From Sphingomonas sp. (GTDB lineage: Bacteria > Pseudomonadota > Alphaproteobacteria > Sphingomonadales > Sphingomonadaceae), in the NCBI RefSeq assembly GCF_024508665.1, contig NZ_JANINP010000006.1, positions 496,001-560,000 on the forward strand: a stretch of DNA of 64,000 bases. Reading direction: 5' to 3'. The stretch's first letter is position 1. Each line of letters opens with the position of its first letter. The notes beneath the pieces were generated by a model. The model did not search any database, was not told the DNA's origin, and saw nothing but the letters and a program-made list of their open reading frames with translations. Made by a program: the position numbers and the translations under genes. This document shows, in pieces, positions 49,353 to 63,275 of this stretch.

Positions 49353-50297
49353 TTATTTGCTCAGCGTGCCTGGCGAGACTGGGATGCTGGTGGTGCCGCC
49401 CTCTTCGAACGATCCCGCGCGATAGAGCAACGTGATCGATACGCGGCGGTTGCGCGGGTCGGCGGGGTTCTTCTCGATCATCGGCTCGCGGTCGGCGACG
49501 CCCTCGATACGGTAGAAGCGATCCTCGATCAGGCCGCCCGATGCCAGCCGGCGGCGGGTCGCCTCGGCGCGGCCGGTCGACAGCATCCAGTTGTTCATCG
49601 CCAGCGGATTTCCATAAGCGAGATTGTCGGTGTGGCCGCGGATCATGATCGGGTTTTCCATGCCCTTGACCGATCCGGCGATCATCCCGATCAGGTCGCT
49701 CGCCGCCGGAACCAGCTGGGTCGTGCCCAAAGCGAACATCGAATAATCGGCATCGTCGACCAGATCGATGCGCAGGCCATCGCGCGTCTGGATGAATTTC
49801 ACGTGGCTGGCGAGCTTGGCGAGTGCAGGCGACTTCATCGCCTGCTCGAGCTTGTGCTTCATCTGCTGGAAATTCTGATTATCCTCGGCGGTCAGCCGCG
49901 CCTTGAGCGAGCCTTTCTCGCCGGAGCCGATTTTCGCGCCGCCGGTCGCGCCCACCGGAATGGTCAGCGATTTAGTTCCGGTTTGCGACGCGCGGTTGGG
50001 GTAATTGTCCTTGTCGGTAATCGACGACCCGCCGAACATGCCGTTCGACCCCGCGCTATTCTCCTTCATGTTGACGAGCGTCGGGGAGAAATAGTCGGCG
50101 ATGCCCTTGCGCTGCTTCTCGGTCGTCGCGCCGAGAATCCACAGCAGCAGGAAGAAGGCCATCATCGCGGTTACGAAGTCGGCATAGGCGACCTTCCATG
50201 CGCCGCCATGATGCGCGCCATGGGCCTCGATATAGATCTTCTTGACGATGATCTTGGGCGGCTGATTGCTGCCATGCGGTGCGCGCGCGGCGGCCAT
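49353..50297 (-). CDS. motB: flagellar motor protein MotB
   Basis: GGAWKVAYADFVTAMMAFFLLLWILGATTEKQRKGIADYF; OmpA-like C-term IMIRGHTDNLAYGNPLAMNNWMLSTGRAEATRR. Confidence 0.96.
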   Translation of the reverse strand: MAAARAPHGSNQPPKIIVKKIYIEAHGAHHGGAWKVAYADFVTAMMAFFLLLWILGATTEKQRKGIADYFSPTLVNMKENSAGSNGMFGGSSITDKDNYPNRASQTGTKSLTIPVGATGGAKIGSGEKGSLKARLTAEDNQNFQQMKHKLEQAMKSPALAKLASHVKFIQTRDGLRIDLVDDADYSMFALGTTQLVPAASDLIGMIAGSVKGMENPIMIRGHTDNLAYGNPLAMNNWMLSTGRAEATRRRLASGGLIEDRFYRIEGVADREPMIEKNPADPRNRRVSITLLYRAGSFEEGGTTSIPVSPGTLSK

Positions 50298-50318
50298 TAT
50301 TTGGCGCCTCCGGCGCGG

Positions 50319-50399
50319 CGGTGCCAGCCCGCTCCCCCCTCCGACCGCCCAATCAGGGTACGATCGTCAGCGGCCGGGTGGGGGAGCGGACTGGCACCG
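50319..50399. repeat. 20-bp-arm inverted repeat between motA and motB
   Basis: CGGTGCCAGCCCGCTCCCCC ... GGGGGAGCGGACTGGCACCG (19/20 complementary, about 41-nt loop). Confidence 0.8.
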
Positions 50400-50410
50400 T
50401 CAACCATAAC

Positions 50411-51274
50411 TCAACGTCCACGCAGGCCATCGAAGACTTCGGCGAAGGCAGGCTGGTTGGAATGGGCGATGCCGGAGCGCGCGGCCTCGATCACCAAGGG
50501 CTGCGGGTGACCGTGCAGCGAAGCGATGATGATCTGCTTGACGACGTGATAGATCGCGGCGTCGGCGTCGATGATCTGCTTGAGGCGCGTCGCCAGCGGA
50601 CCGACCATGCCATAGGCCAGCAACACGCCCATGAAGGTGCCGACCAGCGCCGATCCGATCATTGCGCCCAGGATCGTCGGCGGCTTGTCGATCGATCCCA
50701 TCGTCTTCACCACCCCCAGCACCGCGGCGACGATACCCAGAGCGGGCAGGGCGTCGGCCAGGCTTTGCAGCGTTCCCTGCGGTCCCTCGACTTCGTGGTG
50801 GTGCGTCTTGATCGCGTTATCCATCACTTCCTCGACCGCGTGCACGTCGAGCGTGCCCGACGAGACGACGACGAGGCGGAGCGTGTCCGCGATCAGGTTG
50901 ACCAGCGTGTGATCGGCCAACAGGCGTGGATATTCGGCGAAGATCGCCGACGATTTGGGGTCCTCGACATGCGGCTCGAGCGCGATCGGCCCGTCCATGC
51001 GCAGCATCTTCATCAGCTTCGAGACGAGGAAGATGACGTCGAGATAATCCTGTTTCTTGTATTTCGGCCCCTTCATCACTTTCATGATGCCGCCGCCGAG
51101 CGCCTTGAGCTCCTTGGGCGAGTTGCCGATGATCAGCGCGCCGGCCCCGGCGCCGCCGATGATGAGCATTTCGTGGGGGATCGCCTCCAGCACCGGTCCC
51201 AGTGCCCCGCCGGTAAAGGCAAAGCCGCCGAAGACCATGGCCAGCAGAACAACGAGGCCGATTGCCGGAAACAT
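50411..51274 (-). CDS. motA: flagellar motor stator protein MotA
   Basis: MFPAIGLVVLLAMVFGGF; VVKTMGSIDKPPTILGAMIGSALVGTFMGVLLAYGMVGPLA. Confidence 0.96.
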   Translation of the reverse strand: MFPAIGLVVLLAMVFGGFAFTGGALGPVLEAIPHEMLIIGGAGAGALIIGNSPKELKALGGGIMKVMKGPKYKKQDYLDVIFLVSKLMKMLRMDGPIALEPHVEDPKSSAIFAEYPRLLADHTLVNLIADTLRLVVVSSGTLDVHAVEEVMDNAIKTHHHEVEGPQGTLQSLADALPALGIVAAVLGVVKTMGSIDKPPTILGAMIGSALVGTFMGVLLAYGMVGPLATRLKQIIDADAAIYHVVKQIIIASLHGHPQPLVIEAARSGIAHSNQPAFAEVFDGLRGR

Positions 51275-51306
51275 CTTAGCTCTACTTACCCCCTGCAATC
51301 ACGGCC

Positions 51307-60023: not shown

Positions 60024-60377
60024 CTATTCGCCCCTCAGCGCGCGGGTGATCTGGCCGATCCGCCCGTTCAGGAAGGAAAGGGTCGACTGATATTGGACGG
60101 CATTCTCGGCGAACGCGGTCTGCTCGGTCGACAGGTCGACCGTATTGCCGTCGAGGCTGGGCTGCGTCGGTACGCGATATTTCATCGCGCCCGCGAGGCC
60201 GCCATCGGTCAGCCCGTCGGGGCCGGTCGCCGCCGACAGAGCCTGCTGAAAGTCGATGTCGCGCGCCTTGAACCCGGGGGTCGAGGCGTTCGCGATGTTC
60301 GAGGCGAGCACGCCCATGCGCTGACCGCGCACTTCGAGCGCCGCCCCATGTATCCCGAACAGAGTGTTGTCGGCCAT
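60024..60377 (-). CDS. flgB: flagellar rod protein FlgB
   Basis: LFGIHGAALEVRGQRMGVLASNIANASTPGFKARDIDF. Confidence 0.95.
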   Translation of the reverse strand: MADNTLFGIHGAALEVRGQRMGVLASNIANASTPGFKARDIDFQQALSAATGPDGLTDGGLAGAMKYRVPTQPSLDGNTVDLSTEQTAFAENAVQYQSTLSFLNGRIGQITRALRGE

Positions 60378-60413
60378 TGCCGTCACCTCGCGTGAAATCC
60401 TGCGCGAGAGGTC

Positions 60414-60430
60414 AGCAAGGGGCGTGCCAA
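60414..60430 (-). promoter_or_regulatory. sigma-54 promoter of the flgB operon
   Basis: Minus strand TTGGCACGCCCCTTGCT: matches TGGCACG-N4-TTGCW, GG/GC spacing correct. Confidence 0.88.
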
Positions 60431-60457
60431 TTTCCGTCCGGAGGGCGATTTGACCGG

Positions 60458-60530
60458 TTTTGCCGAGAGAAGGCTGTCAAAACGGCAAAGCTTTGCCGGT
60501 TGCGGCAACGGAATTTGCCGGTTTGCCGGA
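60458..60530. promoter_or_regulatory. CGGCAAA/TTTGCCG motif array (candidate sigma-54 enhancer)
   Basis: Six TTGCCG/CGGCAA copies incl. perfect palindrome CGGCAAAGCTTTGCCG (60483-60498). Confidence 0.65.
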
Positions 60531-60552
60531 GTGTGAATCGGCAGGCGACAGA

Positions 60553-60642
60553 CCCTCACCCTTCCGGCGCTTCGCGCCTCCCTCCCTCTCCCGCGTGCGA
60601 GAGGGAAGGGCCCGCCGCCATGGGCGGTGGGAAGGGTGAGGG
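60553..60642. repeat. intergenic palindromic repeat, family A copy 3
   Basis: CCCTCACCCTTCCGGCGCTTCGCGCC...GGGAAGGGTGAGGG. Confidence 0.85.
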
Positions 60643-60663
60643 TATGTTGGCCCCGCCGACGAA

Positions 60664-60680
60664 CTGGCACCATGTTTGCA
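60664..60680 (+). promoter_or_regulatory. sigma-54 promoter for MotA/TolQ-like gene
   Basis: CTGGCACCATGTTTGCA: TGGCAC-N5-TTGCA with correct 12-bp GG-GC spacing. Confidence 0.75.
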
Positions 60681-60695
60681 GTGCATCGCGTATAT

Positions 60696-61367
60696 ATGAC
60701 GACGGATCCCATCACGCTCGGCGCTTTCCTCGACCCCGCCGCGATCGGCATTGTCGCCGGCGGCACCGTGTTCGCGACCTTGTTGCGGACCTCGCTCGGT
60801 GATGTCGGGCGCGGCATTGCCGCGCTTCGCGCGCTGACGCGCAAACCGTTCGACGCGACGCCCTTGGTCGACCAGATCTCCGCGCTCAGCCGTATCGCGC
60901 GCCGGCACGGCATGCACGCGCTCGACCGCTCGGTCATCGCCGACCGCGACGTTGCCGCGGCGGTCGCGGACATCGTCGATGGCGCGACGCCCGACGAGAT
61001 TACGCGCCAGCTCGACGAGCGCCGCCGCGCCCGCATCCTGCGCCACGCCGCCGCCGCCGATATGTGGGCGGGCGCCGCCGAAGTCGCCCCGGCGATGGGC
61101 ATGGTCGGTACTTTGGTCGGCCTGGTGAAGATGTTCTGGGCGATGACCGACCCGGCCGCGATCGGCGGCGGGATGGCCGTCGCGCTGCTTGCGACGCTCT
61201 ATGGGGCGCTGGTCGCCAATCTGATCGCGATGCCGGTCGCGGTGCGCTTGCGCCGCCGCGCCCGCGCCGAAGCCGAAGAGCGCACCCGCCTCGTCGCGCC
61301 GCTCGCCGCACTCGCCGAAAAGGGACGCGTCAAGGCGCCGACCAGCTTCATGCCGGCGGCGGTATGA
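60696..61367 (+). CDS. MotA/TolQ/ExbB proton channel family protein
   Basis: About 3 TMs; WAGAAEVAPAMGMVGTLVGLVKMFWAMTDPAAIGGGMAVALLATLYGALVANLIAMPVAVRLR. Confidence 0.93.
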   Translation: MTTDPITLGAFLDPAAIGIVAGGTVFATLLRTSLGDVGRGIAALRALTRKPFDATPLVDQISALSRIARRHGMHALDRSVIADRDVAAAVADIVDGATPDEITRQLDERRRARILRHAAAADMWAGAAEVAPAMGMVGTLVGLVKMFWAMTDPAAIGGGMAVALLATLYGALVANLIAMPVAVRLRRRARAEAEERTRLVAPLAALAEKGRVKAPTSFMPAAV

Positions 61368-61894
61368 GCGAGACGGACCTGCTCGATCCGCCGCCCGCGC
61401 GGCCGCTCTGGCTATGGACGCTGGCCGACCTCGCCTTGCTGCTGGTCGGCTTCTTCGTGCTGGTCCAGGCGACCGATCGCCAGGCTCTGGCCAAGGGATT
61501 GCGCGAGGGGTTCGGGGGCAAACCCGCGGCGGCGACCACGATCTCCACGCCCGCCGATCCGATTCCTCTCGCCTCCGCCGCAGCCGGTTTCGCGCCGGGT
61601 TCGGCCAGGATCGTCATTACCGACGGCCTGCTCGACTTCGCGATGGAAAGCCTGCGCGATCCACGTGTGACCCTGCGCATCGCCGGGAGTGCCGAGGGGA
61701 CGCGGGCGGATAGCGACCCGACCACCGGCAGCGCCCAGATCCTGGCCAGCGACCGTGCCCGCGCGACCGCCAGCTGGCTGATCGCGCATGGCGTTGCCGC
61801 CGACCGTATCATGATCGCGACGCCCGGAACCGGCCGTCGCATCGCGCTGGTGACGATGAGCTTCACCGGCGATCCCGACAGGAAGAGACCATGA
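61364..61894 (+). CDS. compact OmpA-family protein with one TM (MotB/TolR-like partner)
   Basis: ATGA overlap with preceding gene; WTLADLALLLVGFFVLVQATD TM with Asp; SDRARATASWLIAHGVAADRIMIATPGTGRRIAL OmpA-like end. Confidence 0.85.
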   Translation: MSETDLLDPPPARPLWLWTLADLALLLVGFFVLVQATDRQALAKGLREGFGGKPAAATTISTPADPIPLASAAAGFAPGSARIVITDGLLDFAMESLRDPRVTLRIAGSAEGTRADSDPTTGSAQILASDRARATASWLIAHGVAADRIMIATPGTGRRIALVTMSFTGDPDRKRP

Positions 61895-62415
61895 CTCGAA
61901 CCCTATGCTTCATAGCGCTGATGTTCGCGGCGAGCCCCGTCGCGGCACAGAATTTCCAGAGCACCACGCTGATCGACAAGGCGGTTGCCGGATTTACCGG
62001 TCATGCGATCGGCGAGTCCGGCGGCGCGCGAACCGCTGTCGACACGCGGCTGAAGCTCGCGGCCTGTCCGATGGTTTCGCTCAATTGGCGCACCGACAGC
62101 CATGATTCGGTCGTCGTGACCTGCACCGATCCGCAATGGCGCATCTTCGTGCCCGTAATGATGCCGGCGAGCCCGGCACCCGCCGCGACGCCGGCAGCGG
62201 CGGTCGTTGCGGCCAAGGCGCCGATCGTCATCAAGCGCGGCGACCCGGTGACGGTGGTGGCGGGCGATGGCGGCTTTTCGGTTACTCGCGACGGTATCGC
62301 GACGACCGACGCTGCCGCCGGCGCCCGCGTGCTGGTCCGCGTCCAGGATGGCAAGCCGCCGATCCAGGCGATCGCGGTTGAGCCGGGCAAAGCCATGATT
62401 CCGGGCGCGGAATAA
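61891..62415 (+). CDS. flgA: flagellar basal body P-ring formation protein FlgA
   Basis: Signal peptide; DTRLKLAACPMVSLNWRTDSHDSVVVTCTDPQWRIFVPV; KRGDPVTVVAGDGGFSVTRDGIATTDAAAGARVLVRVQ. Confidence 0.9.
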   Translation: MTRTLCFIALMFAASPVAAQNFQSTTLIDKAVAGFTGHAIGESGGARTAVDTRLKLAACPMVSLNWRTDSHDSVVVTCTDPQWRIFVPVMMPASPAPAATPAAAVVAAKAPIVIKRGDPVTVVAGDGGFSVTRDGIATTDAAAGARVLVRVQDGKPPIQAIAVEPGKAMIPGAE

Positions 62416-62477
62416 TTTTTTCTAAAGAATTTGGGCAGGCGGACGTTCGATGATCCAGACACGCTTCAGGGTGGACA

Positions 62478-62774
62478 ATGGTGGACTCGATCGGACCGAA
62501 GGGCTCAACGCCCAATGCCCGTATCGCTCCGGTGCTCGGAGCGGCGGCCGCCGCGAGAATCGCGTCGGCCATCGCCACGCCCGAGCAGCAGATGCAGGCG
62601 TCGCACCCGGTTGGTCAGTTGGCACAGGAACTCGCCGCCAAGCCGCCGGTGGATGCGAGCCGCGTCGACCGGTTTCGCAAGGCGATCGCCGATGGCAGCT
62701 TCCAGCTCGACCCGCAGAAGGTCGCGGATCGGCTGTTGTCGCTAAGGGGGGAATGGATCGATGACGCGGCGTGA
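62478..62774 (+). CDS. flgM: anti-sigma-28 factor FlgM
   Basis: VDASRVDRFRKAIADGSFQLDPQKVADRLLSLRGEWI. Confidence 0.87.
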   Translation: MVDSIGPKGSTPNARIAPVLGAAAAARIASAIATPEQQMQASHPVGQLAQELAAKPPVDASRVDRFRKAIADGSFQLDPQKVADRLLSLRGEWIDDAA

Positions 62775-63078
62775 TGGCCTGATCAAGGTAATCGACCTGC
62801 TTCACGCCGAGATCACGGCGATGAAGACGAACGATGTCGATGCTCTCGACAAGGCGACCAGCGCGAAGCTGGCCGCGCTCAACGACCTAGCCGCGATCGA
62901 CGGCGGCATGCTCGAGCCCGGCGTGCGCGAACTCGCGGAGGAAGCGCACCGGCTGAACGAGACCGCGCGGATCTATTGCAACCTGATGGCGGCAAATGTT
63001 CGTCGCCGCCTGCAAATTCTTGCCGGTGACGCTGCCGGTGGATACCGCGCCAACGGGCATCTCGCGGCCTACGCGTAA
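62761..63078 (+). CDS. FlgN-like flagellar export chaperone
   Basis: Overlaps flgM; LIKVIDLLHAEITAMKTNDVDALDKATSAKLAALNDL helical FlgN-like sequence. Confidence 0.75.
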   Translation: MTRRDGLIKVIDLLHAEITAMKTNDVDALDKATSAKLAALNDLAAIDGGMLEPGVRELAEEAHRLNETARIYCNLMAANVRRRLQILAGDAAGGYRANGHLAAYA

Positions 63079-63138
63079 GCTAGTGCTCGCAGGATCGCCT
63101 GCCGCTTAAATCTCTACACAAATTCAAGCTCTTCTATT

Positions 63139-63224
63139 CCCCTCCCGCCTGCGGGAGGGGTTAGGGGAGGGCATGTTTCCAGGCAAAGGGGTGATTTGAC
63201 ACGCCCTCCCGCAAGCGGGAGGGG
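63139..63224. repeat. intergenic palindromic repeat, family B copy 3
   Basis: CCCCTCCCGCCTGCGGGAGGGG...CCCTCCCGCAAGCGGGAGGGG. Confidence 0.75.
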
Positions 63225-63258
63225 AGTTTTCCTCGGCAAAACACCCCATTAACCAAAA

Positions 63259-63275
63259 CTGGCACGCGCCTTGCT
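63259..63275 (+). promoter_or_regulatory. sigma-54 promoter of SltF-like gene
   Basis: CTGGCACGCGCCTTGCT, matches consensus TGGCACG-N4-TTGCW. Confidence 0.88.

Follow-up and report, generated by a model that had tools for sequence, protein, structure and literature searches.

A conserved ladder of CGGCAA/TTGCCG half-sites as a probable sigma-54 enhancer between divergent flagellar operons of Sphingomonas

Introduction

In the FlbD/ftr system of Caulobacter crescentus, which operates at class III flagellar promoters, the rod and hook genes depend on sigma-54 and the activator is encoded in an early flagellar cluster, as at the Sphingomonas locus described here. FlbD exerts dual control, which includes repression of its own tier via ftr4 at fliF (PMC3930126). 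Caulobacter has no FliA (PMC3930126), whereas both fliA and flgM are present in the genome analysed here. A CtrA-like box and an operator precede the activator operon in Sphingomonas, an arrangement resembling that of FlbD/ftr in Caulobacter, provided that CtrA binds the box as presumed. The Sphingomonas system also has features of those of Vibrio FlrC and Pseudomonas FleR, since the AAA+ domain of its activator is closest to that of FlrC and a sigma-54 flagellar tier stands above a FliA tier.

For activation by NtrC, a separation of no less than 70 bp is needed, and one of about 1 kb is tolerated (PMC7408454). In the NtrC-type enhancer of glnA and the face-of-helix enhancers of NifA, as in Sphingomonas, dyads precede a sigma-54 promoter by some 90 bp or more, and dependence on the face of the helix was seen in one such system (PMC7408454). 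Unlike the NtrC and NifA enhancers, the Sphingomonas locus contains four to seven half-sites at a pitch of one helical turn, conserved between two divergent promoters; this multi-half-site ladder also distinguishes it from the ftr system of Caulobacter. FlbD-like regulation has been proposed for Sphingomonas strain WG from annotation and expression, with FlbD and FliX listed (PMC8921679). In the literature that we searched, which was incomplete and included few subscription journals, neither the binding motif nor a ladder with one-turn pitch was found described for sphingomonads.

Results and discussion

Organization of the flagellar locus

The analysed stretch of 64,000 nucleotides, referred to as the window, corresponds to C6:496001-560000 of a 4.64-Mb genome assembled into eight contigs. 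Among named relatives, Sphingomonas pruni is the nearest by FlgB (97%), followed by S. asaccharolytica and S. mali (both 93%). The rod/hook operon on the minus strand begins with flgB (60024-60377, ATG at 60377; Flg_bb_rod, PF00460), which is followed by flgC, flgD and the remaining rod and hook genes, and then by flagellin and motA/motB genes. The divergent operon on the plus strand begins with a MotA/TolQ/ExbB-like gene (60696-61367; PF01618), whose top NCBIfam model is PomA with 146 bits, under the cut-off. It continues with an OmpA-like gene, flgA, flgM and flgN (61364-63078; PF00691, PF13144, PF04316 and, under its cut-off, FlgN PF05130). A flgJ-like gene, flhA and fliA are located downstream. 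The fliA gene was identified as such, and flhA was named from the gene order and its annotated counterpart in Qipengyuania.

Besides the canonical motA/motB (49353-51298, minus strand), the window encodes a second stator-like pair, formed by the MotA/TolQ/ExbB-like protein and the short OmpA-like protein (60696-61894, plus strand) at the head of the flgA-flgM-flgN operon. A MotA/TolQ/ExbB gene occupies the equivalent position in Qipengyuania citrea; the plasmid of S. paeninsulae has no such annotated gene in the interval from flgA to flgB.

Three sigma-54 promoters are conserved

Three sigma-54 promoter elements, six half-sites and a palindrome had been described in a first-pass annotation of the window, and all of them were located where it had placed them. 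The promoter of the flgB operon (TGGCACGCCCCTTGCT, 60414-60429, minus strand) matches the -24/-12 consensus exactly and has a predicted transcription start at about 60403. The promoter of the divergent motA-like/ompA-like/flgA/flgM/flgN operon (TGGCACCATGTTTGCA, 60665-60680, plus strand) has a predicted start at about 60691. The third promoter (TGGCACGCGCCTTGCT, 63260-63275, plus strand), assigned from its motif match and its conservation, precedes the flgJ-like, flhA and fliA genes. The exact pattern TGGCACN5TTGCW has three matches in the 4.64-Mb genome, which are these three flagellar promoters and no others; the reversed control likewise has three matches, so that the evidence resides in their location and not in their number. 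Genome-wide counts with one mismatch allowed were uninformative (280 matches versus 310 for the control) and were dropped. The predicted start of the divergent operon is only about five nucleotides ahead of the ATG of the MotA-like gene at 60696, which suggests that its mRNA may be nearly leaderless.

The promoters were compared among 80 flgB loci of named Sphingomonas, which are mutually related. The flgB promoter is kept in all 80; compared with TGGCACN5TTGCT, 70 are exact, nine have one mismatch and one has two. A divergent sigma-54 promoter with at most one mismatch was found in all 76 loci with enough upstream sequence, at a distance of 123-605 bp, and the remaining four loci, which end at contig ends before reaching it, are outside this count. 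The counterparts of the divergent promoter in relatives mostly read TGGCCCGCN3TTGCA. The third promoter is kept in 73 of 73 loci.

An array of half-sites separates the divergent promoters

The putative enhancer is an array of six CGGCAA/TTGCCG half-sites that spans 69 bp (60460-60528). The half-sites start at 60460 (reverse), 60483 (forward), 60493 (reverse), 60503 (forward), 60515 (reverse) and 60523 (reverse). The half-sites at 60483 and 60493 form a perfect 16-bp dyad (CGGCAAAGCTTTGCCG, 60483-60498), the proposed binding site of an activator dimer, which S. pruni and S. mali share unchanged although its flanks diverge. Third-order Markov sequences of the size of the window contained at most four half-sites per approximately 76 bp, a number reached in five of 300 runs, compared with the six observed. 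The pattern CGGCAA-N2-6-TTGCCG alone, present at 25 places in the genome, was rejected as an unspecific marker. The triple pattern CGGCAA-N3-6-TTGCCG-N3-6-CGGCAA is specific, since its only match in the whole genome is the array at 60460-60528, and its control is absent.

The half-sites are positioned from about -60 to -122 relative to the predicted start of the flgB operon and from -166 to -228 relative to that of the divergent operon. These distances fit the known range of such enhancers, and the array is a putative sigma-54 enhancer. The central dyads lie roughly 87 and 108 bp upstream of the predicted flgB start, compared with the 70 bp or more that is typical of sigma-54 enhancers, and the closest half-site is at -60. 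Several features of a sigma-54 enhancer are found together here: the array is located upstream of -24/-12 promoters, rpoN and sigma-54 activators are present in the genome, and the motif is associated with sigma-54 promoters.

In the window, an inverted-repeat (REP-like) element of about 100 bp (60548-60647) separates the array from the divergent promoter; its 18-bp arms are 94% complementary. The element increases the distance from the array to the divergent promoter; it is unrecognizable in S. pruni and present as a variant in S. mali. A second REP-like element is located at 63138-63225. Both are about 90-100 bp long, and each immediately precedes a sigma-54 promoter of the plus strand.

The array persists while individual half-sites move

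Nearly all of the 80 Sphingomonas flgB loci contain three to seven half-sites upstream of flgB, and 74 of them have four to seven within 130 bp upstream. In four related loci (L126, L161, L177, L181), an array of five sites is displaced to 124-183 bp upstream of flgB. The expectation of the first-pass annotation that the array would be conserved in related genomes is thus borne out by the retention of the flgB promoter in every Sphingomonas locus together with half-sites in nearly all of them, and it extends to other genera of the family. The core of the array (ACCGGCAAAGCTTTGCCG) and the adjoining half-sites are identical in the window, S. pruni and S. mali, and the spacers diverge. The half-site nearest to flgB (CCGGCAAAT in the relatives) is placed differently in the window, approximately one helical turn away. 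Comparison of these sequences indicates that half-sites turn over on a fixed lattice, and across species they change place and orientation yet keep to the grid.

The third promoter differs in this respect. The first-pass annotation pointed to a CGGCAAA heptamer 19 bp before it (63234-63240, plus strand), which is present as located and does not belong to a conserved array. Because neither S. pruni nor S. mali has an exact half-site there, we rejected the lone heptamer as an enhancer of the third promoter; with 18 copies of CGGCAAA/TTTGCCG in the window, a single copy at 63234 is ordinary by count. Half-sites near the third promoter are modestly enriched, about fivefold, and scattered (1.52 versus 0.29 per 200 bp); of 73 loci, 23 lack them altogether and 11 contain at least three. 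The third promoter presumably is under the same activator without having an array.

Half-sites follow the helical repeat

The distances between the starts of half-sites peak at 10-12, 21-23, 32-34, 43-44, 55, 66 and 77 bp. At a period of 10.75 bp, the half-sites of an array have a mean phase coherence of 0.82, compared with 0.45 for the best of 200 random placements. When similar arrays were collapsed to allow for the relatedness of the species, the 14 dissimilar ones that remained had a within-array coherence of 0.71, compared with a null maximum of 0.505, and phasing within the array is secure. Phasing to the flgB promoter weakens on this reduction: the coherence of the same 14 arrays with it is 0.47, above the 99% level of the null (0.41) and below its maximum (0.55); phasing of the array to the flgB promoter is therefore likely but less secure. 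In the 44 loci in which the divergent promoter is less than 100 bp away, it is in phase with the array (0.595, null maximum 0.377), whereas in the 32 loci in which it is more than 100 bp away, the coherence of 0.22 is inside the null, and the two are unphased. Among facing CGGCAA..TTGCCG pairs, a start-to-start distance of 10 bp, which corresponds to the 16-bp dyad CGGCAA-N4-TTGCCG, is the commonest in the 80 loci.

We speculate, tentatively, that in place of one or two fixed operators selection may maintain a 'helical ladder' of four to seven interchangeable half-sites at a pitch of one turn, which come and go in either orientation and stay on one face of the helix. Such a lattice could seed the ring of the sigma-54 activator and be phase-locked to promoters closer than about 100 bp and not to distant ones.

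The motif accompanies flagella and sigma-54 promoters

The triple pattern is present in 102 of 151 genomes of the same genus, in which the reversed control has two matches. It occurs in 101 of the 136 genomes that contain flgB and in one of the 15 that lack it (Fisher p = 4e-7). In Sphingomonadaceae, 103 of 301 genomes, representing 43 of 96 genera, contain the triple, compared with one match of the control. In the rest of the class, approximately 24 of 380 genomes contain it, mostly within open reading frames, and all but one of these occurrences lack a nearby sigma-54 promoter. The exception (L268:330-663), a flagellin locus from a different alphaproteobacterial family, has six CGGCAA/TTGCCG half-sites close to a sigma-54 promoter and hints that the motif may predate the sphingomonads.

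The proposed enrichment of the motif near sigma-54 promoters was confirmed, since 42 of the 60 triples examined (22 of 30 from the genus and 20 of 30 from the family) have an exact TGGCNCN5TTGCW no more than 250 bp away, and 59 kb of background contained no match to this pattern. The gaps between array and promoter cluster near 43, 53, 64 and 74 bp. The annotated plasmid of Qipengyuania citrea, an independent example, has the same operon layout, with half-sites at -69, -58 and -48 relative to the sigma-54 promoter of flgB. In a plasmid flagellar cluster of S. paeninsulae that appears decayed, the sigma-54 promoter of flgB is perfect and a single half-site is located 181 bp from it.

Probable use of the array by both operons

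The array is most likely an enhancer of the FlbD/FlrC-like type common to the flgB operon and the motA-like/flgA operon, both the binding and the sharing being read from sequence comparisons. Its role as a common enhancer, which the first-pass annotation had proposed, is supported indirectly by the constancy of the divergent promoter, by its phasing when near, and by the four displaced loci. Sharing is less certain in the window than in relatives without the repeat, because the distance from the array to the divergent promoter is long there and is interrupted by the inverted repeat of about 100 bp.

The array might instead serve flgB alone, with the divergent promoter fired by weaker or more distant sites of its own, so that the two would be mere neighbours. 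The spacing speaks partly for this reading: the gap between the array and flgB is tight (median 45 bp, interquartile range 43-56), whereas the gap on the side of the divergent promoter varies loosely (median 79 bp, interquartile range 46-186), phasing to the latter is lost beyond 100 bp, and in the window the repeat element lies in between. Nevertheless, the divergent promoter is kept wherever it could be looked for and is phased to the array at short range, and in the four displaced loci the array is 124-147 bp from flgB but only 46 bp from the divergent promoter. Sigma-54 enhancers, moreover, tolerate long distances (PMC7408454), and we consider exclusive use by flgB unlikely.

The candidate activator

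Sigma-54 promoters need an enhancer-binding activator, which the first-pass annotation expected to be of the FlbD, FleQ or FlrC type. The genome encodes one RpoN and eight full sigma-54 activators. The product of the gene at C2:411944-413191, located directly ahead of fliE-fliF-fliG-fliH-fliI and divergent from a flagellin gene, is the candidate, the only one of the eight that fits and the only one to track flagella. It agrees with the expectation in being FlbD/FlrC-like, with an AAA+ domain (PF00158) that carries KGAFTGA and a Fis-type helix-turn-helix (PF02954), the latter nearly invariant among 24 relatives. The nearest solved structure by sequence is that of Vibrio FlrC (E 3e-78, AAA+ domain).

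The identity of the protein as FlbD of the Caulobacter type was rejected. Its top NCBIfam model is FlbD (NF050807), which it matches with 310 bits against a cut-off of 750, and FliX (PF10768) was not found in the genome by a search that was positive in the Caulobacter control. Unlike Caulobacter FlbD, and unlike FlrC and FleR, the activator has no recognizable N-terminal receiver, as no Response_reg match was obtained. For residues 1-95, AlphaFold predicts a compact alpha/beta domain with good confidence; the mean pLDDT of the whole model is 64.7, and its matches in the PDB add nothing to the sequence result. A further difference from FlrC and FleR is that no histidine kinase is encoded among the flanking genes at two activator loci, those of the window's genome and of Qipengyuania.

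A 16-bp dyad of the form CGG[A/C]AA-N4-TTGCCG is located at about -86 from the activator gene and is present, 84-93 bp upstream and with at most one mismatch, in 28 of 29 relatives. It is followed by a CtrA-like TTAAC-N6-TTTACC box, which has zero or one mismatch in 20 of 29 relatives and which CtrA would presumably bind. Both patterns were written after the sequences had been seen, so that only their positional conservation counts. In the gap between the activator and flagellin genes on C2 (L015:11250-11355), a second cluster of six half-sites overlaps a sigma-28-like sequence of flagellin, TAAAGCCC-N11-GCCGTTCT. This cluster is present in the window's genome and one close relative, and elsewhere there is mostly a single dyad. 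On the plasmid of Qipengyuania citrea, fliE is likewise preceded by an activator gene of this type, and the activator-flagellin intergenic region contains no exact half-site.

The half-sites could alternatively be bound by a different regulator, either another sigma-54 activator, such as NtrC/NtrX, or a protein that is not an activator. The presence of eight full sigma-54 activators leaves room for this, and one genome of the same genus (G029) contains flgB and the triple, while an ortholog of the FlbD-like protein was not found in it. The distribution of the proteins argues otherwise: the FlbD/FlrC-like activator is present in 71 of 72 genomes with flgB and in one of nine without it, and the latter genomes retain several other sigma-54 activators but, that one exception aside, not the FlbD-like protein. 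In addition, the FlbD-like gene, which sits in a flagellar cluster, is itself preceded by the dyad. Binding by another regulator seems improbable. That the array is a structural repeat, such as REP-like palindromes or terminator hairpins, with no enhancer role is very unlikely: CGGCAA..TTGCCG dyads elsewhere in the genome do exceed the reversed control (25 versus 2), suggesting other, hairpin-type uses, and true inverted-repeat elements are close by, but the array is upstream of both promoters, its position, phasing and linkage to sigma-54 are kept in many genera, and its half-sites keep to the grid even where their location and direction differ between species, of which hairpins have no need.

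Proposed mechanism of transcription activation

Based on the array as an enhancer bound by the FlbD/FlrC-like protein and common to both operons, the following mechanism can be proposed. Dimers of the activator would bind the 16-bp dyads CGGCAA-N4-TTGCCG through their Fis-type helix-turn-helix. Since half-sites recur approximately once per helical turn, several dimers may become aligned on one face of the DNA, which would help the AAA+ ring to assemble. The ring could then remodel the sigma-54 polymerase waiting at the flgB promoter, resulting in an open complex. Across the gap, the same ring may act at the promoter of the motA-like, ompA-like, flgA, flgM and flgN genes. The activator probably also controls its own gene, via the single dyad about 86 bp upstream of the start codon, beside the CtrA-like box. 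FliA, encoded in the third operon, and FlgM, encoded in the divergent operon, would set the next tier. The roles of FliA and FlgM in the next flagellar tier are established.

Implications for flagellar control in Sphingomonadaceae

The candidate activator raises the question of how assembly is sensed by a protein without a recognizable receiver domain in a genome without a recognizable FliX. The natural variation in spacing and orientation over scores of species constitutes a comparative set for the grammar of enhancers, in which the number of half-sites, their orientation, and helical phase versus distance can be compared. If half-sites are indeed maintained as an interchangeable one-turn lattice, these loci would be a natural series for measuring where DNA looping stops depending on helical phase. 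For the Sphingomonadaceae, a large and poorly studied family, the array offers a concrete DNA code for flagellar control, together with the name of its probable activator.
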